Part shown: positions 21,450-64,000 of the stretch, in pieces
Position numbering within the stretch: the stretch's first letter is position 1
Layout: each line of letters opens with the position of its first letter
DNA from: Sphagnum magellanicum
Lineage: Eukaryota; Streptophyta; Sphagnopsida; Sphagnales; Sphagnaceae
Assembly (NCBI GenBank): GCA_021904315.1
Contig: CM038914.1
Coordinates: 19,641,065 to 19,705,064, forward strand
Length of the DNA: 64,000 bases
Reading direction: 5' to 3'
Made by a program: the position numbers and the translations under genes
The notes under the pieces: generated by a model
The model's database searches: none
The model's input: the letters and a program-made list of their open reading frames with translations, nothing else
Told to the model about the DNA's origin: nothing

Positions 21450-23166
21450 CTATGTACGAGGACCATGCAATGCAGTCTCTGCTCCAATCACCTCCCTTAC
21501 TGTACCAGTTTCTTTGATTGTGTCATCACGATGCAATATATGAGTCATTGCATGATTCACCCACAAAGGTACTACATACTGTTGCCGGATGTATTGGAGT
21601 TCTTCGCCATTCTGATGTGACTGCCTTAAATCCTGGATGGAAGTAATGTCCCGTCTGGTCTTGAAATTGTATCTGCACTTTCTACTCTTATCAAGAGCAT
21701 CCCATTCACCGATGATGGTTGGGCAGACTGTGTCACCTATGTCGAAGTCTAACAATTCTGTTCGACCGTGATGATGATCAGCAATGATGTCCTTGATTTT
21801 TTTTGGGTAAGAAAAGTTGTAAGCCAAACTTCTTGGACGTTGTCTCAGATGCACATGAAATCCACCACCCAAACACTCATTTTCCATCTCTTGAGCAGTT
21901 GAATAACCTGTCTCTGTAGTTCCACCATGACTTCCTCGAAATTGAAGCCCAAATAAATCAACTTGACCTGAGCCTTCCCTTGCAAGTGATGTTGAATTAT
22001 AGTTTGTGATAGTTCTCTTGACAACTTTTTCATGTTCAACTTTTGAAGAGGAAAGAGTTGCAGCCCTTTCCTGTTCACAAGTTAAGGAAATTGTGATGTT
22101 GTCCTGGAAATATCCCAGGTTTGAGGGGTAACCATCGAGTCCACCATCTTCCCCAAGATCGCATTGTGCTTTCAGTGTGGTTGTAATCTTCTTGTGATTT
22201 CCCCTCAATTCAAACTCAAAACGAAGGATAGGTGCAATACATGCCTTATTTATTGGGTTGTCCTGTTGAAGAACCTGGGATCCTTGATGGACACACCCAT
22301 GTTCTGGATAAATAGTCACAACATGAACCTTCTTATTCTCCAAGCGCTCCGGTGGATCTTCAGCAGGATCATCAGAAGGATCATCAGGTGGATCTTCAGC
22401 AGGATCATTGGGTGGATCTTGATTGTGATCATCTGGAGGATTCCAAGCAGGATCCTGAGCGGGGTCTTCAGGAGGATCTTGCGGGGGATCTTTAGTTCCT
22501 GTTGAGGCCTCCTTTGAACTTCCCCCTCCTGCAGCTCCCTTTGAGCTTTCACCTTCACCCCCTGAAACTGGCCTGTGTTTGGTCACATTTGCTTCCTCAA
22601 CTCCCATGCATTCAGCTAGATTCAATACAAGGGGAGCAAATCCTTCATCATTTGATTGTCCAACTTGGTCTTCCATATACACACTAATTACATCACTGCT
22701 TGTCAACCCAACACCAAATCTTTCTGTTAGATCTTCCAACAGTATATTTGAGGGCCTCTCGTCTTGTGTTTGCAATTCTGGAAGACTGATATTCATCCGC
22801 TCAAAATCTCCATGCACCTGGCCTGCCATTTTCAAATTTGCCCGCAAGTCTTTCCATGCATGTTCACCAATGTGCCTCACCTCCACATCCAGCTTTTTGG
22901 TGATCACCACCTTGGCCCACTCAAGCCCGACACCAACAACTTGAGACATGATTTCCGCATTTTCAAAAAATAACTCCACATTGCCTTCATTATTTTTTCT
23001 GCGAGCAACCATAGTTGAACTGCTACTCGTGGTTGGCAGGTTTGGAACACCTTCAATGCTTGTAATGGTGGGACGCAATTCCAATTGTGGAGATAAACTT
23101 TCATTCTTGCTTGTTGAAGGCATTTCATCATCACTACTTGAACACATTGAGTCACCTTCGGAACTT
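21450..23166 (-). CDS. Locus A last exon: novel C-terminal domain
   Basis: A single exon of 1717 bases opens at an AG border (23167) in the phase left by the k2 exon ending at 24260 and runs 572 codons to TAG at 21450. In order it encodes a Ser/acidic start (SSEGDSMCSSSDDEMPSTS), a helical region (VGVGLEWAKVV, RHIGEHAWKDL), a stretch with FGVGLTSSDVISVY, a Gly/Ser hinge, an Asp-Pro-rich linker made of DPP[E/D/N]DP units, and a predicted beta-rich region (KKITTTLKAQCDLGE, LGYFQDNITISLTC, PTIIGEWDALDKSRKCRYNF, PLWVNHAMTHIL). I do not recognise the family. Three paralogues in this window (A, B, C) conserve the two end blocks and vary the linker. No signal peptide or membrane segment is visible. 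Confidence 0.8.
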
Positions 23167-24259
23167 CTGCAACCAATTACAAAAGAAAAATTCTTGTGTT
23201 ATTAGGCCACATTTACAAATCCAAGTGTGGCTTTTGTTCATTCTAATGATGCACATCATCCTTGAACATGCAAATGTGGTTACCACACCTTCACCATTTG
23301 AACCCTGTTGTTCATGTCCCAAATACAATCATTCCAGCTTGCTACATTATGAATACAAAACAATAGGGGGTGTGGGCTGATTGGCCAAAACAAAAAAATT
23401 CTCTAAGTGCTCCATAGGAATTGGAGCCCCAACTGAAGTAATATGTTAAACACATTCATAGTAACTTGAAGTGTTCGTAAATGAACTTTTGGACATTATT
23501 TTTCTATCATATGCTTTTTCATTGTTAATGATATATAAAAGAATTCTTCTCAGAATAACTTCATTCATTTCATTGAAGTAGGGTTTCACAAAACCCAACC
23601 TACAAACATGCACTTCAATATGCACCGGGGTAAAATAAAACTCTATGACACTGGTGTTTGTCTGTGAAAATAAATTGAAATTTTTGTGGAGGGGAAAGGT
23701 CAAGGGTTGGGGACCATTCCCAAAATAAGGGGCCTAGGACAAGGCAGTAGTCGAGTTTGGCCTCACATTCAAGGAATGTCTGCCACTTGTGGACTTTGCC
23801 AATTGTAAAGCATGAGGTGAATGTTATCATGAACCTAGACAAATGTAGATCATGAGGTTTAAGAAAGGGAGGGTTCTTATGCTTACTCCCTAAGAGCGGG
23901 AAGGACATTATGCCTATAAGTAGGATCCTCTGACTGGTGGGGAATAAGAATATATCCCTCCTCTTTTCTAAGAGGGACATTGAAGGATATAATGTGCCCT
24001 CCAAGTACACTAAGAAATTCCTTTGAATGTTTTACACATGAAGGGTTGTTTGTCTTATAAGGTCCATATTGGGGACCTTTCAACAAAACTTAATCTCCAA
24101 CCATCAGTCAATACTCTATCATCACATCCATCTTTACAATGGAAAGGTCCCAAGTGAACAAAAAACCATTACACAGTCCCACAACACAGATTATTGACAA
24201 TCAAACCTCTAGTCATTTCTTGCATTAAATGATATATGGGAACAATTTGGAACACTGAC

Positions 24260-27200
24260 CTGGAACCATGACTTTGTGTAGAGCTTGTTTCTTGTGGTTG
24301 TTGTTTTTTCCCTTTAGGATGACAATCAGAGGTAGACTTTTCATCAAATGTTGTCTGCCACTTGATCTCTTCCAAAGTAGTTTCAAGTGAGGCACATGTT
24401 TTTGATTGTGAAACATACTGAGGAATTTCAATGTTCATAGCACCTTCTTCAGCATTCGGACCTTCTTCCAATTGCAATGCACCATTCATTTCATTGATTA
24501 GATCACTCATTCTTGGTTGAGTCCACTTTCCTTGTATACAAAAATCTGCTATCCTTATAGTTTTCATGATGCTTTCTGCTTGGAAATTGGAACCAAGGGT
24601 GGGGTCAATGAGCCCCTTGTTGAGAAAATCCTCCACCTATCCATGAGTCCACACAAGTCATTTTATTCTTTGTAACAATGAAGGAGAAAGGTTTGCATAC
24701 CCATTTTTAGTTTGGGAACAAGTCATCAAATTTTTACTTTGATGTAATCAGACATTTCACATTGTATGTTCACTTCTTGGATGACATACATGAACAACAT
24801 ATGGGTTTTGTACTGACCTTCTTCTGTTCAGCTAAATTTTCCTCTTATTTTTCCTTCTTGTTATTACAAGTTTGTACATTAGTTTGTGTATGAAAGATGG
24901 TCTCCTCCATAACTTGACTTTCATTGGCATCGGGGGAGGAAGTTTCTATCTTGATGAATTGATCTAAATTATTTGCAAATGAGGCATACTAGTAAAAATT
25001 TTAAATTTTTTGATTTAATAATTATTGTTGTCAATGTTCATTATTCAATCTTTTTTCTTATTATAGATGCCTGAAATGGATCTAGTGGAACTATAATTCT
25101 TCAATGCATTAGATGGCTAACAGTTGGACAATTATTTGTGCCACAAAAAAAATGCATTGTAGATTCAAGGAATAATACCAAACTCAATCCTTTTCTAGGT
25201 TTGCGGTGTTGTCTTCTAGAAATTAGCTCCCATAAAAGACGTCCAAATTCGTAAACAAGAGAGTTTTCCCTGAGAACCATAATCAAATGGTTAGAAGCTT
25301 TATCATGGAATCAATGTAGTGCGTAAAATTATGACCATGGCTTTAGATTCCATATTGTTTCACCAAATGTGGCCATTGAAATCAACAATTTAAGGCTTCA
25401 ATTTGAATACACCTAATGAATGAAAGTAGATTTTGCAAGGAGGATATTATGTAGACATGACCTAAATTAGTACCTATATTTTTAGTTTGCACTGATTTTG
25501 ACCCCCCACGTGCTATATCTTTAAGAACTTTGACTTATATGGCAAAAAATCCATGTTTTTCTTGTAATAATAATGGTGAAATAAGGGCCATCCAGGTCCA
25601 TGGATGACTTTTATGGCATTTCAGCCCAATATTTATGTTGGTTTATACCAACCCAAACATTGAAGGATAAAATCTTGTGATATCCATGCATATACTTAAT
25701 GTCATGTTTACAAAATTTCAGACTACTAAAAATAATAGATGACTCATTAACAAACGTCAAATAGACTAATTCACACAAAAATTGAATCCATGTAAATTTT
25801 GTGTTGGACATTCCTTCTAAGTGAGGGAAAGTCCAACAATTGATTTGGAAATGCACTTTAAGCACTAGTTGGGATTGCAATGTGACAATGACATCTACCA
25901 AAAACATTAAAGATGTGGGCTTCACAAGAAACTACTTTATACATGAGGTTTTATAAATTGAGGTCATCGGCTTAATGAAGAAAATATGGACATTCCTTTA
26001 TGTTTTTTAAAAATCAAACAAAAATAATAATGTAGCCTAAAAATGCATGGAGAACTCAACACAAAATACATACCGGTTTAATGACCATGGCTGAAAAGTG
26101 ACCTTTGGTACCCCATTTTTGGTAAGAAAAATATTCTTGCTTTCTAGTTTGAAATATTGTTCAAGAAAATATGGTAGCCCTGTTCAGCCAATGTTGATTG
26201 AATCTTCAGATTTCAGATGGAACCGTTAAACAATACAATGATGAACACACCATTATCTTCCTCACAAGACCAATTATGGAAATAACCATTACTTGAAATT
26301 TTGAGCCCCTAACAATTGTTGTGACATTCCATTTGGAATACTGAACCTTAGAGGATATAGGCCCCTTCATTTATATATATGTTAACATTATGTGTGATAG
26401 ATAAATAAGCCCCCAAATTTGATAGTTCCACCACCATGGATCTACCATAGTTTTTTGAAATGGCATTAGTTTAATAACCTTGTAAGGGGACGCCCTATCA
26501 ATTAGGGGACATGTATCTAAAGGCCTTGAACACATTGTTAAAATGTTGTAAAAACATAGATACAAGGAGGGGGCAAGTTTGTGATGTTTAATTCATCAAA
26601 GTGCTCCTAAAGCTTCAATATGTAGAAAATACAAAGGGTTTTGCCCTTATAGACCTTTCTATACAAAAATACTTGTAGACATTAACTATGGATGAGGTGT
26701 TCAATGCAATAAAGATATGAAAAATTATATTCATAAATGATATTTTTCTACAACCCTTGGATTGGCATATGCATGTGGCAATCATCCAAAATGGCACCCT
26801 TACTTTCAAAGTTAAACTTGGAGAAAACAATTAAATGGAATGAATCCTAAGTCGGTTCCAAGAATAATTTCATGTATATTACTTTGAAAAGAATAATCAT
26901 TGCACTCTTTTTCAAATTATTGATCAATAAAGACAACATCCATATAGATTAGAAGATAGGGTTTTAAAAAGTTTAACATTTACCTTGTGCAATGTGTAGG
27001 GCAATTTTGAGTCGTGTTTTCCAATCCAATGGAGGAATATCTGAGTCCAACAAACCTTCATCTATAAAAATCATAGACTTGATAAACTATGAAGTGAATC
27101 AAATAAATTACAAATGATCAATGAACATATGCACAAACTAATAAGTAACATTGGCTTCAAAATATATTGCTATAGTGGGGATAAATAACCAAAAAATTAA

Positions 27201-28550
27201 GTCAGGAATTAAGAGCCTTTACCATACACATTTAAACTAAAGTAATGGTTGAAAAGCTCACACAAGTCTAGATATGTGTGAAACAAGTGAGTTAAATCAC
27301 CCAATGCTAGTTGACAAACAATTAGAACAACAATTGTTAACTATTTACCACAGAAAATAACCAGTCTTAGCAAAGTGACGAGGTCCAGCATGCAAGACAT
27401 TCACACTTGAGTTGCAACCCTTATCAAAATTTGGAGCTCATTCAAGAATGGCATGAAAATCATGTTTGGACCTAGACAATAGGGCTCTTTAAAACCAACA
27501 TTGTAAAGGAAATTGACTACAAACATTAATTAATTTTGCAAATTTAATACATAGTTCAATTTGATAGACTCAATTTGAGCATACCATACTTTTTAAAATG
27601 CAATTGTAGCAAGCTTTGCATTAAAAAATTACAAATAAGATGATGATTTCCTAGTTGTGTGCAAGGACTTCATTAGTGACATATCCTAGAGCATATAGGA
27701 AATGAAGCATTCCTTGGTAGAAAGTCAAATGTAATTGGAACATTTGTTCATTAGGAAACCAACATGTTTAGTTACTTTTGCAATGCACACTGTGAAGGAA
27801 CAACTCACCAAAAAGACGGTTTTGCAAAGTTCCACCAGGCATGTATTCATAGATTGAGATTTGACGAGTTTCTGATTCGTAATAACCAATCATTTGGACA
27901 ATGCGTTCACACAATTTCTCAGAGTTGCAACATATCTGAAACCACATTTTACACCCACTTCACAACCCTTATGATCTCAAACAGACATTTAGGTCATGAA
28001 TTTTGGCAAAAAAAAAAGAAGAACAACTAGGGTATAAGTTTGTTGCAATATTACCCATTTCATAACCTAAATTTTTTTTATAATATAGTTTGGTAGGGGT
28101 GTTGAATTGTTCTTTGAATGCAATGCTTAAATTCACTCCTTTCAATGTGTGGTCCCTTAAATGTGTCTTACCATTTTTAAGTACTTAGATCATGTAAAGA
28201 GATGTTTGAAGTTGAGTTACAACACAATGTAATGTTCAAATAAAATTCCATTTTGATGAAAAGTGGATTTAGTGAATTATAAGCCTTCAAAGTTGTTCAT
28301 AAAACTTTAGACTACATGGAAAGACCAAACATGGCTAGTTGATCAGGCATTTAGATTCCGCACCAATCCAAACTGGTGAAATTCTTTTGCAGCTGAATGT
28401 GATTTTAGTTCCCAAACCTTCACTGCCACGTCTTGTCCGGTTTGCAACTTTCCATGGTACATTTCCTCCATAAAGCCATATTCTTGAATTCTCTTCCGAA
28501 AATTATCAGTCATCATCATCACCTCCATCAATGTGTAAAGACCTGGCTTA
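24260..28550 (-). CDS. Locus A second kinase-like module (k2), pseudokinase
   Basis: Six exons: 28550-28364, 27935-27809, 27061-26984, 26179-26074, 25269-25179 and 24636-24260. Phases agree throughout and lead into the last exon at 23166. The N-lobe follows plant receptor-like kinases: LYTLMEVMMMTDNFRKRI, a degraded Gly loop (QEYGFMEEMYHGKL) and a retained VAVKV lysine; then IVQMIGYYES, ISIYEYMPGGTL, LDWKTRLKIALHIAQ. At the catalytic loop the HRD position reads YFK before LESKNIFL, and the DFG position reads FQP. The next exon gives LVYEFGRLLWELIS, the helix-F block, so the activation segment and APE motif are absent. The end (IDPTLGSNFQAESI, QPRMSDLINEMNGALQLE) is the normal kinase C-lobe tail. 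It is most likely a pseudokinase. Its first in-frame ATG (28621) lies upstream in what would be intron if exon 1 is used. Confidence 0.85.
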
Positions 28551-29989
28551 CTGTATAATTCAAACATGAAATCACAAGAACCATATGAGAAACAAGACAA
28601 AAAAATTCTTGGTTGACTCAAATTTTAGTTTGCATTTTTAGTGTGCATTTCTAGGTTTGGAACACACTACTAGTCAAATACCATACATGAAATGAACATG
28701 TGGCATAAAAAGCTTCTAAGGTGCAATAGAATGGTAGGTCTTAGGTTCATGAGTGCAAGGGGGTTTTCTATAACTCTAAAGGACTAATGATAACAATTAG
28801 TTGCGTGAAATCTAACCTTACCATCACATAAAAGAAAAATTGAAAAACTTGCTCAAAATACAATCATTATACATCATTGTTCAAGTTCAAAATAATTATT
28901 CTAACTCACTACATTATGAATACAAAACAATAGGGCAAGTTTGGGTGGATTAGCCAAACAAAATCTTTTCCAAGTCTTCCATAGGAATTCAAGGCCAAAA
29001 TTGAAGGAATATGTTAAATACATTCATATCAAGTTGAAGTGTTCATAAATGAACTTTGTGACAAACTAGACATGATTCTTCTATCATATGATTATTCCTT
29101 GTCAATGATATCTGAAAGAATTCTTTCATAGTAACTTCATCCATTTCATTGGAGTAAGGTTTCACAAAACCCAACTTGTAAACATGTATTTTAATATCCA
29201 AGATAAATTATTATCCTATGACAATGGCATTTGTTTGTGAAAATAAGTCAAAGTTTTTGTGGAGAGGAAAGGTCAAAGGTGAAGAACATTCCCAAAATAA
29301 GGGGCCTAGGACAAGGAAATAGTCGAATTTGGCCTCACATTCAAGGAATGTCCCCCACTTCTAGGCTTCGCCCATCATAAAACATGAGGTGAAGGTTATC
29401 ATGAATCGAAACAGATGTAAATCATGAGGTTTAGGAAGGGAGGGTTCTTTTGCTTACTCCCTAAAAGTGGGAAAGACATTATGCCTATGAGTAGGATCCT
29501 CTGACTGATGGTGAATAAGCATATATCCTTCCTCTTGTCTAAGGGGGACATTGATGGATATAAGGTGCCCTCCAAATACACTAGGAAATTCCTTTGAATG
29601 TTTTACACATGAAGGTATGTTTGTTTTACAAGGTCCATATTGGTGACCTTGCAACAAAACTTAATTTCCAATCATTAGTTAGTACCCTATGACCACATCC
29701 ATCTCTATAATGGAAAGGTCCTAGGTGAACAAAAAGTCACTACACAATCCCACAACATAGATTATTGATTAATCAAATCTGTAGTCATTTCCTGCACTGA
29801 ATGATAGATGAATGTAATTTGGAACACTAACCTGGAACCATGACTTTGCACGTTGCTTGTTTCAGGTTGTTGCTGTTTTTTCCCTTCAAGATTCATAAAC
29901 ACATGTTCACAATTAGAGGTAGACTTCTCAATGAATTTCATTTGCCACTTGATATTTTTGGAAGGAATTTCAAATGATGCACACATTTT

Positions 29990-32900
29990 TTATTGTGAAG
30001 CATATTGAGGAATTTCAATCTTAATAACACCTTCTTCAACCTTCTGACCTTCTTCCAATTGCAATGCACCATTAATTTCATCGATCACATCACTCATTGT
30101 TAATTGAGGAACCCCCCACAGTGGATGTAGTAGACAGACATGTGTTAACTGCACAATTTTCATGATGGTTTTTATTCGGAAGTTGGAGCCAAGGGTAGGG
30201 TTGGTGATCCCCATGTTGCCAGAATCTTCCAAAACGATTTTCACCTATCCATGAGTCCAAGTGTGCAAGTCATTTTATTGTTTGTAACAATGAAGAAGGG
30301 TTTGCATATCTGGTTTAGTTTTTGAATATGTCATTTAATCTCAACTTTGATGTATTTGAACATTTCACATTATACATTCACAACTTGGTTTAACATGTGC
30401 ATGAACAACATATGGGTTTTGCACTAACCTTTTTTTGCTCAGTTAAGTTCTTCTCTTATTCTTCTTTGTTGTTATTACAAGTTTGTACATTATTCCTTGT
30501 TTGAATAATGGTCTCTTCTATACCTTGACTTTCATTAACATGTGGAGAGTAAGTTGCTATCTTGATGAATTCATGGAAATTATTTGCAAATGTGGCATAT
30601 TTGTAACAATTATAAACTTATTAATTAAATAAGTTTCATCTTCAATGCTCATTGGTCAATCTTTTTTCTTTTTAATATAAATGTCTAGTATGGATTTCTT
30701 GGAACTATAATTCTTTCATGGATCAAATGGCCAACAATTGAACAATTTATCGTGTAAACAAAAAATGCACTATAGATTCAAGGAATAATACCAAATCAGA
30801 AAATCCTTCTCCATGTTTGGGTTCTGGTTGCCCAGAAATTAGCTCCCATAAAAAAACTCCAAATTTGTAAATAGGAAACTGTTGCCTGACAACCATATGC
30901 AAATGGTTAGAAGCTTTGTCACAAAGTCAACATAATGTTTAATCGCAGTGACCTCCATTTTCTTTCACCAAATCTTGAGTTTGAAATTAGCAATTAAAAA
31001 TTTAAAGTTAAATACACCTAATAATTGAAGCTAAATTTAACAAGGAAAATATTTTGCAAACATTTCGTAAATTAGTAAATTAAGAATCCTGGAATTTACT
31101 TTGAAATGATTTAGACCCCCAAATGCCATGTCTTTGAGAAATTTGACCTATATCAAAGAAAATGAATGTTCGTCTATGAATAGGAATGGTGAAACAAGGG
31201 CCATCCAAGTCCATGTATGACTTTTATGGAATTTGATCTCAATATCTCTGTTCGTCTATATGAACGCTAACATTGGACGATACATTCCTGCAATATCCCT
31301 ATGTCTAGCTATCCTATGTTGACAAAGGTTTAAACTATTAAGAGCAAGAACTGACTCATTAGCAAACATCGAATAGACCCACAAATTGGGTCCATCCAAA
31401 TTTGCATTGAACATTCCTTTTGAGTGATAAAGAAAGTCCAACAATTGATTTTTGGAACTGAACTTGAAACACTAATTGGACTGCAATTTGATAATGACAT
31501 CCAACAAAAACAACAGAAATGTGGGCTTCATAGAAAATTATTATGTTTATATATATGAGGTTTTATAAATTGAGGCCATAGGTTTAACGAAGAAAATATG
31601 GACATTTTTTAAAATTTGGTTTTTGAATCAATCAACAATAATAACATGTAGGCAGGAAAAACATGGAGAGTTTAACACAAATTACATACCCTATTGAAAA
31701 CGACGATGGCAAAGCATCAAGTACATCAAAGTAAATCTTAGGTACCCAATTCTCTGTAAGAAAAATAGCATGGCTCCCCAAATGCGAACATAGTTCAGGA
31801 AAACGTCGTAGACCTGTTCAACCAATATCAAACAAATGTCTTCATAGTTGGGGTATAACCATCAAACAATTCATTCACAAATACACCATTTTCTTCCTCA
31901 TGAGACTAATTCTGGAAATAACCATTACTTGAACTTGTGAACCCCCAACAATTGGTGTGAAATTCCATTTGGAATACTAAACCTGATATGACATAGGCCA
32001 CATTCACTTCTATATCTGTCAGCATTATGTAACAAATAAATAGCCCCCCAAATTTTGAAGGGTGCACCACCTTTGATTTGCAATATTTTCGTGGAGTGGC
32101 TATAGCTTAACAACCTTGTAAGACCCGCCTCATTAATTATGTGTCAGGTTCCTAAAAGGCTTTATTAGTTTGGCTGCATTCTAAAGAATGCAATGCCATT
32201 TTCCACCTAAATCATGTACATAAGTAATAATTTGAAAATTCAAGTGTTCAACAACTAAGCATAGGGTTTCAACTCATCAAAGCAGAACTAAAACTTCAAA
32301 TGTAGAAAATACAAGGGGTTCTACCCTTATAGACCTTTCTTTCAAAAAAAAAGCAAACATCACATGTGGATGGGGTGTTCAATGCAATGAAGATATTGAT
32401 AATTATACTCATACATGATAGTTTTCTACAGTTCTTGGATTTGGCATATGCTTGTGGAACTCATCCAAAATGACACCTTTACTTTCAAAGACCAACTTGA
32501 CAAAAACAATTAGATGTAATGAATCCTAAGTTGGTTCGAAATATAGGTTCATGCATATTACTTTCAGAAATTAATCACCCCAATCTAGTTGAAATTGTCA
32601 ATCAATAAAGAAAATATAAGACACATTATTTTAAAATTTAATAGTTACCTTGAGCCATGTGTAGGGCAATTTGGAGTCGTGTTTTTCCGTCCAATGCATG
32701 AGTTTCCAAGTCCAAAACACCTTTGTCTGTAAAAGTCATGGAGTGAAATTATGAAGTCATTTAAATAAGTTACAAATGAATGATGAACATATGCATAAAC
32801 TAACAAGGAACACCAACCCCCAAAAATTTACTGCTACAATGGGGAAAAATAACCAATATTTTAGTTTAGGAATTAAGAAGGCTTATCATACACATCTAGG

Positions 32901-34196
32901 TGGGTGTGAAACAAGGGAGTTAAATCACCTAATGTCAGTTGACAAACAGCTAAAACAACAATTGTTAACCATTGACCATGAAGAATAATCAATCTCAACA
33001 AAGAGACTAAGTTGCATGCATTACATTCACATTTGAGTTGCACCCACTGTGAAAATCTAGAGGCCTTTTAAGAATGACATGGATATCATGTATAGACCTA
33101 GACAATAAGGCTCTTTAAAACCAAAATTATAAAACAGATCAAGTACTAATTCATTTTGTAAGCTTATTACAGGGTCCAACTTGACATACTCTATTTCAAT
33201 CAAACATACTCTTTGAAATGCAACTGTAGCAAACTCTGCATAAAGAACCTACAAATAAAATGATGATTTCCTGATTGTATGCAAGGACCTCATTAGTGAC
33301 ATATCCTCGAACACACAAAAGGAAGCATTCCCTAGTAGACATTGAAATTTAATTGTAGCATATGCTCACTAGGAAAACAACAACAGATTCATTTACTCTT
33401 GGATTGCACAATATGAAACAACAACTCACCATGAAGACGTTGCTGCAAAGTTCCACCAGGCATGTATTCATAGATTGAAATTTCCTCATGTCCCAGCTCA
33501 TATGGCACTGGGCTGTCGCAATAACCAATCATTTGGACAACGTATTCACCAAATTTTTCATACTCGAGATAATTCTGAAACCACATTTTACACCCACATC
33601 ACAACCCTAGTAATTTCAAACACACATTTAGGCTATGAATTTCGGCCAAATAGCTAAACAGCCACCATGGTCTCAGTTTGCTGCAGTATTAGCAATTTTG
33701 TAGGCTAAAAAACATTTTGTAAATTTATACTTGGGTAGGGGTGTTGAATGGTTCCTTGAATGCAGCGCTTAAATGCACTCCATTCAATTCTTGGTCCCTT
33801 TAACGTGTTCTGCCATTTTAAGGTACTTAGATCATGCGAGGGGATGCTTGAGGCTTAGTTGTTTTAGAAGGCAATTTAGCTATCAATTAAAATTCCATTC
33901 TGATGAGACATATCCTAGGGAGTTATAAGCGTTCAAAGTTTTTCATGATACGCCAGACTACATGAAAAGACCAGACATGGCTGGCTGATCAGGCATTAGG
34001 GCTGCTCACTCTTTCAAACTCTGCAAACTCATTTGCTACGGAATGATATGCCTCAAGCTTCCAAACTTTCACTGCCACTTCTCGTCCAGTTAGCAGTTTT
34101 CCATGGTACACCGTTGCACGGCGACCTTCTCCAATTTTCTTCGCATAATTATCAGTCATCTCCTTTACCTCCAGCAATGTGTAACGACGTGACTCA
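29990..34196 (-). CDS. Locus A first kinase-like module (k1), pseudokinase
   Basis: Exons: 34196-34010, 33574-33430, 32726-32649, 31813-31690, 30885-30792 and 30244-29990 (TAA at 29992-29990). With exon 1 (35156-34666) they give 458 codons including the stop. Visible blocks are RRYTLLEVKEMTDNYAKKIG, GEGRRATVYHGKL, VAVKVWKLE, VVQMIGYCDS, ISIYEYMPGGTLQQRL, KTRLQIALHMAQ, AIFLTENWVPKI, YKFGVFLWELISG and NPTLGSNFRI. The HRD and DFG motifs are lost and the activation segment is missing, as in k2; the Asn that binds metal is Ala here (HAIFL). The Gly loop is closer to normal than in k2. Beyond the stop, sequence like the k2 tail continues to a conserved donor at 29832. It is an in-locus duplicate of k2, with the same exon number and phases. 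Confidence 0.85.
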
Positions 34197-34665
34197 CTGT
34201 ATAATTCCACCATGAAATCACAAGAGCCATGAGAGAGACAAGACAAACATAAAATTTCTTGGTTTACTCAAATTCCGGTCTCCAGTTCTGGTGTGCATCT
34301 CCATGTTTGGAACATTCTACTAGTGAAATAACATAAATGAAGCAGGCATGTGGCATGAAATTTTTTTCAGGTGCAGCAGAATGATAGGTCTTAGGGTCAT
34401 GAGAGCGAGGGGGTTTTACGTAGCTCTGAAGAACTGATGATCAAGGTTAGCTGGGTGAAACCTAACCTCACCACCGCAAAACAGAAATTTTGAAGAACTT
34501 GAAAATAAGCACACAAGGATATGAATATTTAGAGAACTCATAGCTATTGCAGGTATCCAGTTCTGACTTCGACAAGACGATGCGGAAGCGCTCTATGCTT
34601 CAATAGATTCAACAGAGTAGGACGGGCATTAAGTACGACACTAGGTAGGATACATATGTTCAGAC

Positions 34666-48600: not shown

Positions 48601-48629
48601 AATTTTAGATCCTGTCCAAAACTTTCTTG

Positions 48630-52990: not shown

Positions 52991-55900
52991 CTGGAACCAT
53001 GACTTTGTGTAGTGCTTGTTTGATCTTGTTGTGGTCTTTTCCCTTTAGGATCACAATCAGAGGTAGACTTTTCAGCAAATATTGTCTGCGACTTGATCTT
53101 TTCCAAAGTAGTTTCAAGTGAGGCACATGTTTTTGATTGTGAAGCATACTGAGGAATTTGAATGTTCATAGCACCTTCTTCAGCATTTCGACCTTCTTCC
53201 AATTGCAATGCACCATTCATTTCATTGATTAGATCACTGATTCTTCGTTGAGTCCACTTTCTTCGTAGACAAAAATCTGCTATCCTTATAGTTGTCATGA
53301 TGCTTTCTACTTGGAAATTGGAACCAAGGGTGGAGTCAATGAACCCCTTATTGAAAAAATCCTCCACCTATCCATGAGTCCACACAAGTCATTTTATTCT
53401 TTGTAACAATGAAGGAGAAAGGTTTGCATATCGATTTTAGTTTGGGAACATGTCATCAAATTTTTACTTTGATGTAATCAGACATTTCACATTGTATGTT
53501 CACTTCTTGGATGACATACATGAACAACATATGGGTTTTGTACTGACCTTCTTTTGTTCAACTAAATTTTTCTCTTATTTTTCCTTGTTGTTATTACAAA
53601 GTTTGTACATTAGTTTGTGTATGAAAGATGGTCTCCTCCATAACTTGACTTTCATTGGCATCTGGGGAGGAAGTTTCTATCTTGATGAATTGATCTAAAT
53701 TATTTGCAAATGAGGCATACTAGTAAAAATTTTAAACTTTTTGATTTAATAATTATTGTTGTCAATGTTCATTAGTCAAATTTTTTTTCTTATAATATAG
53801 ATGCCCGAAATGGATCTAGTGGAACTATAATTCCTCAATGCATTAGATGGCTAACAGTTGGACAATTATTTGTGCCAAAAAAAAGATGCATTGTAGATTC
53901 AAGGAGTAATACCAAACTCAATCCTTCTCTAGGTTGGAATTGTTTCCATCCAGAAATTAGCTCCCATAAAAGACATCCAAATTCGTAAATAAGAGAGTTT
54001 TCCCTGAGAACCATAATCAAATGGTTAGAAGCTTTATCATGGAATCAATGTAGTGCATAAAATTATGACCATGGCTTTAAATTCCATATTGTTTCACCAA
54101 ATGTGGCCATTCAAATCAACAATTTAGGGCTTCAATTTGAATACACCTAATGAATGAAAGTAGATTTTGCAAGGAGGATATTATGCAAACATGACCTAAA
54201 TTAATAGTTTAGTAATGCCTATATTTTTACTTTGCAATGATTTTGACCCCCAAGTGCTATATCTTTAAGAATTTTGACCTATATGGAAAAAAGTCCATGT
54301 TTTTCTTGTAACTAATAATGGTGAAATAAGGGCCATCCAGGTTCATGGATGACTTTTATAGCATTCCATCTCAATATTTATGTTGATCTATACCAACCCA
54401 AACATTGAAGGATAAAATCTTGTAATGTTATGCATATGCTTAATTTTATGTTTACAAAATTTTAGACTTACAATAATAGATGACTCATTAACAAAATTGA
54501 CACACAAATTGAGTCCCTGTAATTTTTTTGTTGGACATTCCTTCTAAGTGAGAGAAAGTGCAACAATTGATTATGAAATGCACTTTAAGCACTAGTTGGG
54601 ATTGCAATGTGACAATGACATCTACCAAAAACAGTAAAAATGTTGGCTTCACAAGAAACTACTTTGTATATATGAAGTTTTATAAATTGAGGTCATTGGC
54701 TTAATGAAGAAAATATGGACATTCCTTTACGTTTTTTAAAAATCAAACAACAATAATAATGTAGCCTAAAAATGCATGGAGAACTCAACACAAAATACAT
54801 ACCGGTGAAATGAGCATGGCTGAAAAGTAACCTTGGGTACCTCATTCTCTGTAAGAAAAATATTCTTGCTCTCTAGTTTGAAATATTGTTCAAGAAAATA
54901 TGGTAGCCCTGTTCAGCCAACGTTGATTGAATCTTCATATTTCAGATGGAACCGTTAAACAATACAATGATGAATACATCATTATCTTCCTCACAAGACC
55001 AATTATGGAAATAACCATTACTTGAAATTTTGAGCCCCCAACAATTGCTGTGAAATTCCATTTGGAATACTAAACCATAAAGGATACAGGCCCTTTCATT
55101 TATATATATGTTAACATTATGTGTAAGAGATAAATAAGCTTCCAAATTTGATAGTTCCACCACCATGGATCTACCATAGTTTTTTGAAATGGCACTATTT
55201 GAATAACCTTGTAAGGGAACGTCGTATCAATTAAGGGACATGTATCTAAAGGCCTTGAACACATTGTTAAAACGTTGTAAAAACATAGATACAAAGGGCA
55301 AGTTTGTGATGTTTAACTCATCAAAGTGCTACTAAAGCTTCAATATGTAGAAAATACAAAGGGTTCTACCCTTATAGACCTTTTTATACAAAAATACTTC
55401 TAGACATTAATTGTGGATGAGGTGTTCAATGCAATAAAGATATGGAAAATCATATTCAGAAATGATATTTTTCTACAGCTCTTGGATTGGCATATGCATG
55501 TGGCAATCATCCAAAATGACACCCTTACTTTCAAAGTTAAACTTGGAGAAAACAATTAGATGGAATGAATCCTAAGTTGGTTCCAAGAATAATTTCATGT
55601 ATATTACTTTGAAAAGAATAATCATTGCACTCTTATTCAAATTGTTGATCAATAAAGACAACATCCATATAGATTAGAAGATAGGGTTTTAAAAAGTTTA
55701 ACATTTACCTTGTGCAATGTGTAGGGCAATTTTGAGTCGTGTTTTCCAATCCAATGGAGGAATATCTGAGTCCAACAAGCTTTCATCTATAAAAATCATA
55801 GACTTGATAAACTATGAATTGAATCAGATAAATTACAAATGATCAATGAACATATGCACAAACTAATAAGTAACATTGGCTTCAAAATAATATTGCCACA

Positions 55901-57273
55901 CTGGCGATAAATAACCAAAAATTTAAGTTAGGAATCAAGAGCCTTTATCATACACATCTAAACTAAAGCAATGGTTGAAAAGCTCATACAAGTCTAGATA
56001 TGTGTGAAACAAGTGAGTTAAATCACCCAATGTTAGTTGATAAACAATCAAAACAATAATTGTTAACAATTGACCACAAAAAATAACTAATCTTAGCAAA
56101 GTGATGAGGTCAAACATGCAATACATTTACATTTTAGTTGCAACCCGTATCAAAATTTAGAGCTCGTTCAAGAATGGTGTGGAAATCATGTTTGGACCTA
56201 GATAGTAGGGCTCTTTAAAACCAACATTGTAAAGGAAATTGACTACAAACATTAATTCATTTTGCAAACTTAATACATAGTTCAATTTGATAGACTTAAT
56301 TTGAGCATACCATACTTTTTAAAATGCAATTGTAGCAAGCTTTGCATAAAGAAATTACAAATAAGATGATGATTTCCTAGTTGTGTGCAAGGACTTCATT
56401 AGTGACATATCCTAGAACATATAGGAAATGAAGCATTCCTTGGTAGAAAGTCAAATGTAATTGGAACATTTGTTCATTAGGAAAACAACATGTTTAGTTA
56501 CTTTTGCAATGCACAATGTGAAGGAACAACTCACCAAAAAGACGGTTTTGCAAAGTTCCACCAGGCATGTATTCATAGATTGAGATTTGACGAGTTTCTG
56601 ATTCGTAATAACCAATCATTTGGACAACGTGTTCACACAATTTTTCAGAGTTGCAACATATCTGAAACCACATTTTACACCCACCTCACAACCCTTATGA
56701 TTTCAAACACACATTTAGGTCATGAATTTTGGCAAAAAAAAAACAAAACAACTAGGGTATAAGTTTGTTGCAATATTACCCATTTCATAACCTAAAAAAT
56801 ATTTTATAATATAGTTTGGTAGGGGTGTTGAATTTTTCTTTGAATGCAGTGCTTAAATTCATTCTTTTCAATGTTTGGTCCTTTAGACGTGTCTTACCAT
56901 TTTTAAGTACTTAGATCATGTAAAGAGATGTTTGAAGTTGAGTTACAACACAATGTAATGTTTAAATAAAATTCCATTTTGATGAAAAGTGGATTTAGTG
57001 AACTATAAGCCTTCAAAGTTGTTCATAAAACTTTAGACTACATGGAAAGACCAAACATGACTAGTTGATCAGGCATTTAGATTCCGCACCAATCCAAACT
57101 GGTGAAACTCTTTTGCAGCTGAATGTGATCTTAGTTCCCAAACCTTCACTGCCACTTCTTGTCCGTTTTGCAACTTTCCATGGTACATTGTCTCAAAGCC
57201 ATATTTTTCAATTCTCTTCCGAAAATTATTAGTCATCACGATCACCTCCATCGATGTGTAGAGACCTGGCTTA
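52991..57273 (-). CDS. Locus B second kinase-like module (k2), pseudokinase
   Basis: Exons: 57273-57090, 56661-56535, 55786-55709, 54908-54803, 54003-53913 and 53367-52991. They keep the same phases as locus A k2, and the first exon is one codon shorter. Visible blocks are LYTSMEVIVMTNNFRKRI, YGFETMYHGKL, VAVKVWELRS, ISIYEYMPGGTL, LDWKTRLKIALHIAQ, YFKLESKNIFLTENEVPKV, LIYEFGCLLWELISG and IDSTLGSNFQVESI. The beta-3 lysine is kept, HRD and DFG are absent (YFK, FQP), and no exon encodes the activation segment. Introns are nearly identical to those of A k2, so the A/B duplication or a later gene conversion is recent. Confidence 0.85.
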
Positions 57274-58718
57274 CTGTATAATTCAAACATGAAATCACAA
57301 GAACCATATGAGAGACAAAATAAAAAAATTCTTGGTTGACTCAAATTCTAGTTTGCATTTTTAGTGTGCATTTCTAGGTTTGGAACACACTACTAGTGAA
57401 ATACCATACATGAAATGAACATGTGGCGTAAAAAGCTTCTAAGGTGCAATAGAATGGTAGGTCTTAGGTTCATGAGTGCAAGGGGATTTTCTATAGCTCT
57501 AAAGGACTAATGATAACAATTAGTTGCATGAAACCTAACCTTACCATCACATAAAAGAAAAATTGAAGAACTTGCTCAAAATACAATCATTATACATCAT
57601 TGTTCAAGTTCAAAATATAATTATTCTAACTCACTACATTATGAATACAAAACAATAGGGCAAGTTTGGGTCGATTAGCCAAAACAAAATCTCTTCCAAG
57701 TTTTCCATAGGAATTCAAGACCAAAATTGAAGGAATATGTTAAATACATTCATATCAAGTTGAAGTGTTCATAAATGAACTTTGTGACAACTAGACATGA
57801 TTCTTCTATCATATGATTATTCCTTGTCAATGATATCTGAAAGAATTCTTTCATAATAACTTCATCCATTTCATTGGAGTAAGGTTTCACAAAACCCAAC
57901 TTGTAAACATGTATTTTAATATGCACCAAAATAAATTATTACCCTAAGACAATGGCATTTGTTTGTGAAAATAAGTCAAAGTTTTTGTGGAGAGGAAAGG
58001 TCAAAGGTGGAGAACATTCCCAAAATAAGGGGCCTAGGACAAGGAAATAGTCAAATTTGGCCTCACATTCAAGGAATGTCCCCCACTTCTAGGCTTCACC
58101 CATCATAAAACATGAGGTGAAGGTTATCATGAATTGAAATAGATGTAAATCATGAGGTTTAGGAAGGAAGGGTTCTTTTGCTTACTCCCTAAAAGTGGGA
58201 AAGACATTATGCCTATGAGTAGGATCCTTTGACTGATGGTGAATAAGAATATATCCTTCCTTTTATCTAAGGGGGACATTGATGGATATAAGGTGCCCTC
58301 CAAATACACTAGGAAATTCCTTTGAATGTTTTACACATGAAGGTATGTTTGTTTTACAAGGTCCATATTGGTGACATTACAACAAAACTTAATTTCCAAT
58401 CATTAGTTAGTACCCTATGACCACATCCATCTCTATAATGGAAAGGTCCTAGCTGAAGAAAAAGTCAATACACATTCCCACAACATAGATTGTTGATTAA
58501 TCAAATTTCTAGTCATTTCTTGCATTAAATGATAGATAAATGTAATTTGAAACACTAACCTGGAACCGTGACTTTGCACATTGCTTGTTTCAGGTTGTTG
58601 TTGTTTTTTCCCTTTAAGATTCATAAACACATGTTCACAATTAGAGGTAGACTTTTCAATGAATTTCATTTGCCACTTGATATCTTTGGATGGAAGTTTA
58701 AAAGAGGGACACAATTTT

Positions 58719-61700
58719 CTATTGTGAAGCATATTGATAAATTTCAATCTTAATAACACCTTCTTCAACCTTCTGACCTTCTTCCAATTGCAATGCACCA
58801 TTAATTTCATCGATCACATCACTCATTGTTAATGGAAGAACCCGCAGTTGGTTTTGATTTAGACACATATTTATTAACTTCACAATTTTCATGATGGCTT
58901 CTGTTGGGAAGTTGGAGCCAAGGATAGCTTTGGTGATCCCCATGTCGCCAGAATCTTGCAAAACGATTTTCACCTATCCATGAGTCCAAGTGTGCAAGTC
59001 ATTTTATTATTTGTAACAATGAAAAAGGGGTTGCATATCCAATTTAGTTTTTGAATATGTCATCTAATCTCAACTTTGATGTATTTAGACATTTCACATT
59101 AAACATTCACAACTTGGTTTAACATGTGCATGAACAACATATGGGTTTTGCACTAACCTTTTTTTGCTCAATTAAGTTCTTTTCTTATTCTTCTTTGTTG
59201 TTATTACAAGTTTGTACATTATTCCTTGTTTGAATAATGGTCTTTTCCATACCTTGACCTTCATTGACATGTGGAGAGTAAGTTGCTATCTTGATGTATT
59301 CATGGAAATTATTTGCAATTGTGGCATATTAGTAATAATTATAAACTTATTAATTAAATAAGTTTCATCTTCAATGTTCATTGGTCAATCTTTTTTCTTT
59401 TTAATATAAATGCCTAGTATGGATTTCTTGGAACTATAATTCTTTCATGGATCAAATGGCCAACAATTGAACAATTTATTGTGTAAACAAAAAATGGAAT
59501 ATAGATTGAAGGAATAATACCAAATCATTTATTCCATGTATGGTTTGTCGTTGCCCAGAAATTAGCTCCCATAAAAAACCTCCAAAGTTGTAAATACCAA
59601 ACTGTTGCCTGACAACCATATGCAAATGGTTAGAAGCTTTGTCACAAAGTGAACATAATGTTTAATGGCAGTAGCCTCCATTTTCTTTCACCAAATCTTG
59701 AGTTTGAAACTAACAATTTAAAATTTAAAGTTAAATACACCTAATGATTGAAGCTAAATTTAACAAGGAAAATATTTTGCAAACATTACGTAGATTAGTA
59801 GTTTAAGAATCCCGGAATTTACTTTGAAACGATTTACACCCCCAAATGCCATGTCTTAAAAAAAATTTGACCTATATCAAAGAAAATGAATGTTTATCTG
59901 TGAAAAAGAATGGTGAAACAAGGGCCATCCAGCTCCATGTATGACTTTTATGGAATTTGATCTCAATATCTCTGTTAGTTTATACGAACGTTAACATTGG
60001 ACAATACATTCCTGCAATATCCCTATGTCCACCTATCGTATGTTGACAAAGGTTTAAACTATTAAAAGGAATATTAAATGACTCATTAGCAAACACATCA
60101 AGTAGACCCACAAATTGGGTCCATGCAAATTTGCATTGGACATTCTTGTTGGGTGATAAAGAAAGTCCAACAATTGATTTTTGGAAATGAATTTGAAACA
60201 TTAATTGGAGTATAATCTGATAGTGACATCCAACAAAAAAATTTAAAATGTGGGCTTCACAGAAAATTACTAAGTATATATATGAGGTTTTATAAATTGA
60301 AGCCATAGGTTTAAGGAAGAAAATATGGACATTCCTTTATTTGGTTTTTCAATCAATAAACAATAAAAATATAGGCCAGAAAAACATGGAGAGTTCAACA
60401 CAAATTACGTACCGTTCCAGGGATGGAAACTGAGACAATGGAAGTTGAGATGTTCCCCCAAACTGAAGGACATTATGAAATCGAAGAATACTTTTAGGTA
60501 CCGAATTCTCTGTAAGAAAAATATTGATATTATGCCATGGGAGATAGTTTTCACCAAAATATTGCATGCCTATTCAACCAATATCAAGCAAATGTCTTCA
60601 TATTTGAGGTATAGAACACTTTAAACACTTCATTCATGAATACACCATTTTCTTCCTAATGAGACTAATTATGGAAATAACCATTACTTGAACTTGTGAA
60701 CCTTCAACAATTGGTGTCAAATTCCATTTGGAATACTAAACCTGATATGACATAGGCTGCTTTCACTTTTATATATGTTAGCATTATGTGACAAATAAAT
60801 AGCCCCCCAAATTTGAAAGGTGCACCACCATTGATTCACAATATTTTTGTGGAGTGGCTATAGCTAAGCAACCTTGTAAGGGCTACCTCATTAAGTATTT
60901 GTGAAGTTCCTAAAGGCCTTTACTAGTTTGGCTGCATTCAAAAAAATGCAATGCCATTTTCCAACTAAATCATGTATATAAGTAATAATTTGAAAATTCA
61001 AATATTCAACAACCAAGCATAGGGCTTCAACTCATCAAAGCACAACTAAAACTTCAATATGTAGAAAATACAACGGGTTCTATCCTTATAAACCTTTTTA
61101 TACAAAAATAAGCAAACATTACATGTGGATGAGGTGTTCAATGCAATGAAGATATTGATAATTATACTCGTACAAGATAGTTTTGTACAGTTCTTGGCTT
61201 TGACATATGTTTGTGGAACTCATCCAAAACAACACCTTTACTTTCAAAGACCAACTTGAAGAAAACAATTAGATGGAATGAATCCTAAGTTGGTTAGAGG
61301 AATAGGTTCATGCATATTAATTTCAAAAAAAATCATGCCACTCTAGTTGAAATTGTCAATCAATAAAGAAAATATAAGACATGTTATTTTTAAAATATAA
61401 TAGTTACCTTTTGCTATGTGTAGGGCAATTTGGAGTCGTGTTTTCCAGTCCAATGCTTGAGTTCTCGAGTGGAAAACACCTTTATCTATAAAAGTCATGG
61501 AGTCAAATTATGAAGTCATTTAAATAAGTTACAAATGAATGATGAACATATGCATAAACTAACAACGAACACTGGCCACAAAAATTTATTGCTGCAATGG
61601 GGAGAAGTAACCAATATTTTTAATTTAGGATTCAAGAAGGTTTATCATACACATCTAGGCGGGTGTGAAACAAGGGAATTAAATCACCCAATGTTAGTTG

Positions 61701-62889
61701 ACAAATAGCTAAAACAACAATTGTTAACCATTGACCACAAAAAATAATCAATCTCAGCAAAGAGACTAGGTTGCATGCATTACATTGACATTTGAGTTGC
61801 ACCCACTATCAAAATCCAGAGGCCTTTCAGGAATGACATGGATATCATGTATAGACCTAGACGATAGGGCTCTCTAAAACCAGAACCGTAAAGCAAATCA
61901 AGTACAAAAATTAATTCATTTTGTAAGCCATGGTCCAACTTGATGTACTCTATTTCAATCTAACATACTCTTTGAAATGCAACTGCAGCAAACTCTGCAT
62001 AAAGAACCTACAAATAATATGATGATTTCCTAATTGTATGCAAGGACTTCATTAGTGACATATCCTCCAACACACATAGGAAGCATTCCCTAGTAGACAA
62101 TGAAATTTAATTGGAGCATCTACTCACTAAAAGAACAACAATAGATTCATTTACTCTTGGATTGCACAATAGGAAGCAACAACTCACCAAAAAAATCTTT
62201 GAAACGTCCACCAGGCATGTACTCATAAATTGAAATTTGTTGATCTCCTTCGCAATAACCAATCACTTTGACTATGTGTTCACAACACTTTTCATACCGT
62301 CCACAAAACTAAAACCACATGTTACACCCAGATCACAACCCTTGTGATTTCAAACACACATTTGTCTATGAATTTTTGCAAAAGAGCCAAAAAAAAACTA
62401 GGGTATGAGTTTGCTGTAGTATTAGCAATTTTCATAGCTTGCAAAATATTTTGTAATATACTTCAGTAGGGGTGTTGAATGGCTCCTTGAATGCAGTGCT
62501 TAATGCATTCAATGCTGGTGTTAAACATGTCCTACCATTTTTAAGTACTTAAATCATTTAAGGGCATGGTTGAGGCTCAATTGTTTTACAAGGCAATTTA
62601 ATGATCAAATAAAATTCCATTCTAATGAGAAGTGGATCTATCAAGTTATCAGACACTGTTGGTTGATCAAGAAATAGGGCTCCTCACCGTTTCAAACTGG
62701 TGAAACTCTTCTGCAACTGAAAGAGTTTGAGGTGCAGCTAGTAAACCTAGTTTCCAAACCTGCACTGCCACTTCTTGTCCAGTTTGCAACTTTCCATGGT
62801 ACATTGTCCCAAAGCCATTTTCTTCAATTATCTTCCCAAAATTATCAGTCATCACCTTCACCTCCATCATTGTGTAACAACCTGGCTCA
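58719..62889 (-). CDS. Locus B first kinase-like module (k1), pseudokinase
   Basis: Exons: 62889-62688, 62308-62188, 61485-61408, 60569-60413, 59608-59521 and 58973-58719 (TAG at 58721-58719). All phases agree. The first exon has five extra codons (LGLLAAPQTLSVAEEF) relative to locus A. Blocks: CYTMMEVKVMTDNFGKIIEE, NGFGTMYHGKL, VAVQVWKLG, HIVKVIGYCEGDQQISIYEY, LDWKTRLQIALHIAK, WHNINIFLTENSVPKS, YNFGGFLWELISG and KAILGSNFPTEAI. Here even the beta-3 lysine is replaced (VAVQV), besides HRD and DFG loss. The stop sits at the same codon as in A k1 but is TAG rather than TAA; beyond it the frame is shifted, so the tail is not maintained. Confidence 0.85.
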
Positions 62890-63349
62890 CTGTATAACTC
62901 CACCATGAAACCACGAGAGGCATATGAGAGACATGACACACATAACTGCTGGTTTACTCAAATTCCAGTTTGCATTTCTGGTGTGCATCTCCATGTTTGG
63001 AACACGCCACTAGTGAAATTATATACATGAAACAGATATGTGGCATGAAAAACTCCTCAGGTGGAGCAGAATGATGGGTCCTAGGTTCATGAGTGCAAGG
63101 GGTTCTTCTTTAACTCTGAAGAACTGACGATCAAGGTTAGCTGGGTGAAACTTAACCTCACCACCGCAAAAAAGAAAGTTTGAATTTTTTTAAGCACATA
63201 AGGATATGTATGTTTAGAGAAGTCATAGCCATTGTCGGGCTGCAGTAGACTTCGACAAGACGATGCGGAAGCGGTCTATGCTTGAATAGATTCAACAGAG
63301 TAGGACGGGGACTGCTTAGAACACTAGGGTAGGATACAGGTACACGGAC

Positions 63350-64000
63350 CTGTTCTTCCATTTCTTGCTAGCAGAAGGCACGGGGAACGAGGTCTCACGC
63401 AATCCAGACGGGTTTCCATCTGTCGTGTTAAAGAATACTTCAGATTTGAGAGCAGCATCATTCTCTTCGTCGCGGATTATAGATCCACGCAACACTCTTT
63501 TGTTACTTCTCGTCACCTTCGTCAGCAGAGATTTTGCACTGCTTTCATTCCGTTCGTTGCTCATTACAGGACGCCCCGATGAGCCATCTGTCGTGTTGAA
63601 AAATACTTCAGATTTGAGAGTAGCATCATTCTCTTCGTCGCGGATTATAGATCCACGCAACACTCTTTTGTTACTTCTCGTCACCTCCGTCGGCAGAGAT
63701 TTTGCACTGCTTTCATTCCGTTCGTTGCTCATTACAGGACGCCCCGATGAGCCATCTGTCGTGTTGAAAAATACTTCAGATTTGAGAGTAGCATCATTCT
63801 CTTCGTCGCGGATTATAGATCCACGCAACACTCTTTTGTTACTTCTCGTCACCTCCGTCGGCAGAGATTTTGCACTGCTTTCATTCCGTTCGTTGCCCAT
63901 TACAGGACGCCCCGATGAGCCATCTGTCGTGTTGAAAAATACTTCAGATTTGAGAGTAGCATCATTCTCTTCGTCGCGGATTATAGATCCACGCAACACT
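63350..64000 (-). CDS. Locus B first exon (partial, 5' end beyond window)
   Basis: The open frame runs from the window edge to a GT donor at 63349, in the same phase as locus A exon 1, and ends in the matching basic stretch (NPSGLRETSFPVPSASKKWK). Most of it is a tandem array of a 56-residue unit. The start codon and any sequence matching the locus A N-terminus lie outside the window. Product unknown; hydrophilic and probably unstructured. Confidence 0.75.
63417..64000 (-). repeat. In-frame 168-bp coding minisatellite, at least 3.5 units
   Basis: The word CAGATTTGAG starts at 63441, 63609, 63777 and 63945, exactly 168 bases apart, which is 56 codons. Each unit encodes TTDGSSGRPVMSNERNESSA, KSLPTEVTRSNKRVLRGSII and RDEENDATLKSEVFFN. 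Units are almost identical; the 3'-most differs at a few sites (LLTKVT/AALKSEV). The array continues past the window. Locus A has one diverged unit. Confidence 0.95.

Follow-up and report, generated by a model that had tools for sequence, protein, structure and literature searches.

A shared C-terminal domain behind pseudokinase, NLR and transcription-factor exons in the moss Sphagnum magellanicum: a putative swappable module of plant immunity

A stretch of 64,000 nucleotides from the genome of Sphagnum magellanicum (contig CM038914.1, positions 19,641,065 to 19,705,064; hereafter the window) carries two minus-strand loci, A (21450-35186) and B (50188 to beyond 64000), in which kinase-like exons precede one long last exon encoding a domain named here Dom. 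The same domain was found elsewhere in the genome behind disease-resistance receptors, kinases and transcription factors, a distribution suggestive of an exchangeable module in plant immunity, and the Dom tail is exchanged between different upstream partners. We give even chances to the proposal that this gene family comprises immune proteins built from a variable N-terminal bait and a constant C-terminal Dom.

Genomic distribution and partners of Dom

The source genome searched comprises 438,994,042 bases in 31 contigs. At least 76 Dom matches were returned (77 of the 104 candidates scored), which merge to approximately 62 loci on 14 contigs, the window copies included; 45 of these loci span at least 400 of the 564 residues, and 38 of the 45 are free of stops in the matched stretches. 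Partners were surveyed at 22 loci outside the window with upstream sequence, namely L009 to L028, taken by rank of Dom score, together with L035 and L034, the last chosen in the knowledge that an NB-ARC lay nearby. Loci L029 to L032 and L036 were looked at mainly for the Dom open reading frame (ORF) and stand outside this count.

A partner was recognised at 16 of the 22 loci. Four paralogs (L009, L010, L011 and L012) carry one pseudokinase cassette each, with the cassette and its splice sites the same as in the window in L009, L010 and L012 and partly so in L011; the splice acceptor joining the cassette to Dom is kept in five of the six loci searched for it and was not found in L011. An NB-ARC, with or without TIR and leucine-rich repeats (LRRs), lies near Dom in L018, L022, L023, L028 and L034, and exons of TIR-type nucleotide-binding leucine-rich-repeat receptors (TIR-NLRs) stand upstream of it in L022 and L028. 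The remaining partners are an ankyrin protein (L024), WRKY-AP2 (L014), WRKY (L027), bHLH (L015), SBP (L019), LRR (L025) and a kinase (L035). None was recognised in L013, L016, L020, L021 or L026, where ORFs were scanned in part, and the upstream sequence of L017 fell outside the survey. Dom shares a single open frame with LRRs in L018, L025 and, by eye, L029, and with WRKY in L027; in L018 these LRRs belong to the NB-ARC gene.

An NB-ARC was located within 10 kb upstream on the same strand at 5 of the 22 loci (4 of 21 without L034), compared with about 0.1 of 22 by chance, a figure from our own arithmetic in which all 380 NB-ARC candidates are taken as real; two of the five loci, L022 and L028, are copies of one another. 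No NB-ARC was recognised at the other 17 of the 22 loci among the part of their ORFs that was scanned. Within the window none was found in the ORFs and spliced models scanned, which thus contain no NLR, nor did the genome search place one there among the matches listed (125 of the 380 candidates scored).

Two partner frames end close to Dom. In L014 one ORF (2124-2990) holds both WRKY (4.6e-9) and AP2 (1.1e-9) and ends about 40 bases ahead of the Dom ORF, and in L035 a 581-residue kinase ORF (4419-6161; PF07714, 1.4e-42) lies about 200 bases ahead of it. An alpha/beta-hydrolase label given by eye to ORFs in L018, L026 and L034 was left out of the partner count: the scanned ORFs had no Pfam match, and a Protein Data Bank (PDB) search with one L018 ORF found nothing.

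Exchange of the tail

The two TIR-NLR loci L022 and L028 are 92% identical over about 7 kb of TIR-NB-ARC-LRR sequence, yet blastn found no match between them over Dom. The reverse was also observed. L022 and L016 have different upstream ORFs, yet a 3.05 kb stretch around Dom is 89.5% identical between them; the NB-ARC locus L023 and the ankyrin locus L024 are 95.3% identical over 2.4 kb around Dom; and L013, for which no partner was recognised, matches L014 at 96.4% from within the Dom ORF onward. Since near-identical Doms thus stand behind unlike partners, and near-identical TIR-NLR bodies before different Doms, the tail has been exchanged between upstream partners. A tree groups the L022 Dom with that of L016 and leaves L028 on a long, unsure branch; built without L012 and L009, it places the pseudokinase-linked Doms and a solitary window copy (C, described below) in one clade (100/100). 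Loci A and B themselves are 97-99% identical as far as the first part of the Dom exon and 52-86% per 100 bases thereafter, which indicates separate histories for the two Dom bodies.

Sequence and constraint of Dom

Three copies of Dom occur in the window (A, B and C), and the ratio of nonsynonymous to synonymous divergence (dN/dS) is 0.54 for A and B, 0.60 for A and C and 0.51 for B and C, with all upper bounds below 0.8. Dom is under purifying selection. The initial annotation of this DNA had described the last exon as a domain that could not be placed, and so it proved: profile searches found no credible match in Pfam, NCBIfam or the PDB, those of the PDB with 3 and with 21 Dom members giving nothing up to E=10, and the viral and prokaryote collections held no relative.

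Some likenesses of Dom were set aside. A resemblance to Levivirus coat proteins (E 0.003-0.016) concerned the locus B copy only and lay below the cut-off, and a PDB match to a phage coat had E 0.009; both were judged to be chance. An aerolysin-like fold for the Ser/Thr-rich stretch was an idea formed by eye and was not used.

Structure of loci A and B

Each locus consists of a first exon (E0), two kinase-like modules of six exons (E1 to E6) and the last exon, an arrangement which the initial annotation had already described, as it had the spacing of 28.7 kb between the copies. By blastn the two loci are 89% identical across a 12.4 kb alignment, and the two modules within each are about 75% alike, introns counted. 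Exons were called by aligning the four modules (A1, A2, B1 and B2) and retaining acceptor and donor pairs that every module shares, provided that the exon between them is open and its length agrees modulo 3. Six exons per module were recovered, with splice dinucleotides and compatible phases agreeing in all four: E1 2>0, E2 0>1, E3 1>1, E4 1>2, E5 2>0 and E6 0>2. Since phase 2 also marks the end of E0 and the start of the last exon, the frame survives whether the six-exon cassette is doubled or left out. Splice sites were scored with a weight matrix, by which the E1 donor of A1, A2 and B2 and the E6 acceptor of all four modules are poor. An earlier E4 candidate, a VVH-containing stretch at alignment columns 2640-2755, was discarded: indels break its frame, both A2 and B1 contain a stop, and the acceptor AG is missing from A2. 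The true E4 occupies columns 2927-3084.

In locus A, E0 (34666-34985) runs from the first plausible ATG to the donor AACAG/GTCTGA (the slash marks the cut) and ends in phase 2. Module 1 follows, with E1 at 34010-34196, bearing the glycine-loop position and the beta3 Lys, E2 at 33430-33574, E3 at 32649-32726, E4 at 31690-31813, a hypervariable replacement of the catalytic and activation loops, E5 at 30792-30885 and E6 at 29832-30244. The exons of module 2 lie at 28364-28550 (E1), 27809-27935 (E2), 26984-27061 (E3), 26074-26179 (E4), 25179-25269 (E5) and 24260-24636 (E6), the last open to its phase-2 donor CAG/GTCAGT. The Dom exon (21450-23166) begins in phase 2 after the acceptor TTGGTTGCAG/A.

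In locus B, module 1 comprises E1 at 62688-62889, E2 at 62188-62308, E3 at 61408-61485, E4 at 60413-60569 (45% different from that of locus A), E5 at 59521-59608 and E6 at 58560-58973, and module 2 comprises E1 at 57090-57273, E2 at 56535-56661, E3 at 55709-55786, E4 at 54803-54908, E5 at 53913-54003 and E6 at 52991-53367, with the Dom exon at 50188-51850. The first exon (63350-64000) leaves the window and starts just beyond its edge. It contains 168-bp tandem repeats (56 amino acids), of which 3.5 copies with 98% matches lie inside the window in coding sequence at 63416-64000, and locus A E0 aligns to slightly more than one such unit. Against Pfam the locus A E0 had no match, and all matches of the locus B E0 were below the curated cut-offs.

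The exons of both loci, with their phases and spacing, are real. The initial annotation lacked the third Dom copy, C, at 14695 to about 16110 on the minus strand. It is truncated at its 5' end (this limit is approximate and set by eye), has no kinase exons and adjoins an annexin gene.

Stop codon in module 1 and predicted products

All four modules had been taken to be open with matching phases; the phases hold, and the open frame fails in E6 of module 1, which in both loci has an in-frame stop at the same codon, TAA in A (29990-29992) and TAG in B (58719-58721), where module 2 has TCA. This stop precedes the sole good phase-2 donor, CAG/GTTAGT; two earlier phase-2 GT sites occur before it in each locus and are poor by eye. 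Upstream of the stop both modules are open, for 294 codons in A1 and 300 in B1. After it A1 is still open, while B1 is frameshifted and has many stops. The open combinations are consequently E0 with module 1 to the stop and E0 with module 2 and Dom (for locus B as far as E0 lies inside the window); E0, both modules and Dom together are open in neither locus. An in-frame ATG just ahead of E1 in all four modules means that module 2 could also start a protein of its own.

A single protein with both modules and Dom is not supported, as the stop comes before the only good donor, and the analogy with tandem kinase proteins drawn in the initial annotation fails on this point. No polypeptide predicted from A or B carries two kinase-like domains, and none of the four window modules retains intact catalytic motifs, whereas predicted splicing does place module 2 in one frame with Dom in both loci. 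Rather than tandem kinase proteins, A and B appear to encode fusions with a single pseudokinase, the cassette of which has been duplicated.

Origin and lost catalysis of the kinase modules

The four modules are, on their residues, pseudokinases related to SymRK-type receptor kinases, and their earlier description as pseudokinases is borne out by homology to PF07714 together with loss of the catalytic residues. All four pass the PF07714 cut-off in Pfam (E 2e-12, 1.2e-11, 4.3e-12 and 3.4e-13). Among solved kinases the best match of the three spliced modules searched was SymRK (A2, E 1e-22; B2, 1.4e-19; A1, 6e-15), in two stretches which leave out the catalytic and activation loops; next for A2 came At5g41260 (8e-15) and 3hgk/2qkw (about 9e-15), the latter presumably Pto. 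YFKLESKN of A2 aligns with HRDVKSIN of 3hgk, and the column of the HRD Asp holds Lys in A2 and B2, His in A1 and Pro in B1. None of the four retains the DFG Asp in its column. The beta3 Lys is kept in A1, A2 and B2 and replaced by Gln in B1.

Of the loci examined, the paralog L010 comes nearest to a tandem kinase fusion, being composed of kinase, pseudokinase and Dom. Within its 740-residue open frame lies a kinase that has VVVK, HKDIKASN and APE, with GDYES replacing DFG (PF00069, E=4e-30, in two stretches). The best PDB matches of this kinase were to 6lba (E 1e-16; presumably a plant MLKL), to RIPK1 and to proteins under the name mixed lineage kinase domain-like. Pseudokinase E1 continues the kinase frame, and E2 to E6 and Dom follow with splice sites intact. 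The RIPK1/MLKL-like ORF (L010:794-3013) lies between acidic repeats. Among the cassette paralogs an intact-looking kinase is added only in L010 in the sequences examined, and neither the window nor the adjoining 4.5 kb past locus B yielded a kinase of this type.

Coding signature and divergence of the cassette

In exons up to the module-1 stop, all indels across the six module pairs are multiples of three. Between A1 and A2 this holds for 8 of 8 exon indels compared with 13 of 53 in introns (p=7e-5), and between A1 and B1 for 6 of 6 compared with 10 of 26 (p=0.018); A2 and B2 differ by a single exon indel, and the test is not significant (p=0.15). When substitutions were placed at random at the A1-B1 number (188 of 855 sites), the frame stayed free of stops in 2 of 2000 simulations, and at the A1-A2 number in 0 of 2000; the 137 of 2000 obtained for A2-B2 says little by itself.

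The exons have in addition diverged faster than their own flanks. For A1 and B1 the Mantel-Haenszel odds ratio is 2.44 (p=1e-17), or 1.86 (p=4e-7) without E4, an exon that is hard to align and differs at 56 of 124 sites (45%) compared with 52 of 487 (11%) in the flanking introns (p=1.6e-16). The ratios are 1.76 for A2 and B2 (p=0.002; E4 alone not significant), 1.37 for A1 and A2 (p=0.001) and 1.36 for B1 and B2 (p=0.002).

Proposed function and alternative explanations

In the proposed family the bait of loci A and B would be a dead kinase descended from a SymRK-like receptor kinase, in which a six-exon cassette bounded by phase 2 was presumably duplicated in tandem and the first copy now stops. 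The likely products would be a short protein of E0 and pseudokinase 1 and a longer one of E0, pseudokinase 2 and Dom (or pseudokinase 2 and Dom from its own start). The N-terminal parts may mimic or monitor host proteins attacked by pathogen effectors, while Dom would be the shared part which couples such baits to NLR signalling, as its single frame with the LRRs of the NB-ARC gene in L018 and its place behind the TIR-NLR exons of L022 and L028 suggest. An immune function is inferred for the family as a whole. The disease-resistance analogy of the initial annotation was judged the best lead, and the occurrence of Dom behind NLR and transcription-factor exons makes the stronger argument for an immune role. 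A more specific version, which we hold as doubtful but worth stating, is that Dom serves as a docking module of moss immunity. The tail common to NLRs and to separately encoded baits (pseudokinases, WRKY, SBP, bHLH and ankyrin proteins) would then let a single NLR link up, Dom to Dom, with numerous detached decoys, and recombination within the Dom exon or immediately ahead of it would reassemble the repertoire.

Several observations weigh against the combination of bait and coupling tail. The dN/dS of the kinase exons is 0.85-1.04 over the six pairs, with all intervals spanning 1, and a value near 1 is also expected from decay. E2 and E3 of A2 and B2 differ less than their flanks, although not significantly, and so does E1 of B1 and B2 (p=0.013). 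Between A1 and B1 the dS of exons (0.27) exceeds the intron divergence (0.094), and with dS raised too, the exon excess may be owed partly to old exchange among the copies and partly to diversifying selection. Stops interrupt the kinase exons of L009 and L012 and, once each, the Doms of L009 and L022; with the module-1 stop in both window loci, these indicate that part of the family is dying. Besides the shared ORFs and the pseudokinase splice, partners are linked to Dom by same-strand adjacency. Fusions with WRKY must be rare, since of the genome's 67 WRKY matches a single one (L014) coincides with one of the Dom loci examined, the WRKY of L027 being off that list. Dom may, finally, be a sensor and not a coupler if TIR is the output in the TIR-NLRs.

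This last point leads to an alternative which we regard as unlikely, namely that Dom binds effectors and the N-terminal parts (TIR-NB-ARC, other NB-ARC, RIPK1/MLKL-like kinase and transcription factors) are the outputs. Output in TIR-NLRs and kinase fusions does usually come from the N-terminal part, Dom is placed after the LRRs, and WRKY-AP2, SBP and bHLH ORFs precede it. Against this, the N-terminal part of A and B is a dead kinase whose module 1 has diverged most where its active site used to be, the pattern expected of a bait, and Dom is under purifying selection.

A low probability is likewise assigned to the view that the kinase modules are decaying pseudogene exons, skipped by means of their phase-2 introns, with only E0-Dom or Dom functional. 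The loss of catalytic residues, the shared stop and the near-neutral dN/dS fit this view, and E0 to Dom is in frame. Decay would not, however, be expected to leave A1 and B1 with their long stop-free frames in spite of 188 substitutions, nor to restrict indels before the stop to multiples of three, nor to keep splice sites in the paralogs, and B1 decays at once after its stop.

It is quite improbable that Dom is carried by a mobile element which landed behind many genes with incidental neighbours. The number and scatter of Dom loci and the near-identical copies in unlike surroundings would accord with such an element, but four copies share one ORF with LRRs or WRKY, the acceptor joining the cassette is mostly kept, NB-ARC lies upstream far beyond the chance figure, and no transposase family occurred among the matches of 21 members with E up to 0.1, terminal repeats not having been searched for. 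A single tandem-kinase-like protein with two pseudokinases and Dom, to which the matching phases would be suited, is very improbable given the module-1 E6 stop in both loci and the want of a good earlier phase-2 donor.

Other features of the window

Annexin exons (16256-18274, minus strand) lie directly upstream of copy C across a gap of about 150 bases, and four ORFs match PF00191, the best at 3.7e-18. An annexin-Dom fusion would need a donor that is weak by eye and is not claimed. Sequence from the 5' side of this annexin recurs downstream of the locus B Dom as a 71% repeat (48619-49051 and 18167-18604), a sign of unequal exchange in the array. Upstream of locus A a segmental repeat (2852-4330 and 36429-37957) is 82% identical. 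At 4622-5615 lies a long tandem array, rich in AT, whose periods are close to 40 bases, and a fragment resembling a B3 DNA-binding domain (40688-41152, plus strand; E 2e-4) falls below the curated cut-off. At Rfam gathering scores the window had no match.

Comparison with known systems

Integrated decoys in NLRs and kinase fusions in wheat and barley are already known; here the constant element would be a new domain, common to NLRs and non-NLR fusions. If the proposal is true, it would provide a handle on how sensing is coupled to NLRs in non-flowering plants, the N-terminal partners as a ready list of likely effector targets, and a natural experiment on how domains are swapped. No description of such a shared tail was found in the literature searched, whose scope excluded most subscription papers and all bioRxiv preprints. 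C-JID is a post-LRR domain of TIR-NLRs, and Dom resembles it in its position behind their LRRs. C-JID was presumably among the Pfam models compared with Dom, none of which matched credibly, and Dom differs from it also in occurring without LRRs.

An expansion of NLRs with integrated domains has been described in Ceratodon and Sphagnum, in the portion of the paper drawn on here (PMC11218826); the terms 'post-LRR' and 'WRKY' have no occurrence in its main text. These receptors are likewise fused to kinase, transcription-factor and other target-like domains, whereas the constant part in the present family is Dom and not NB-ARC. In the Triticeae, Sr43 is a kinase-DUF3475-DUF668 protein and Lr9 is WTK6-vWA, for which integrated decoys are proposed by the Lr9 authors, according to the sections used here (PMC10260397; PMC10260399). 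A kinase part joined to a non-kinase C-terminal domain is common to both cases; on the same sections their kinase is apparently active, whereas the window loci have only dead modules and Dom has no credible Pfam family. Tandem duplication is a frequent origin of tandem kinase-pseudokinase proteins such as WTK1/Yr15 and RPG1, and for 92 of them no additional conserved domain is reported in the excerpted text (PMC6170490). With these the window loci share, as far as that text goes, a pseudokinase derived from a receptor-like kinase and a tandem duplication. They differ in that a stop separates the modules of A and B and neither is an intact kinase, and it is L010 which comes nearer to the tandem kinase-pseudokinase plan.

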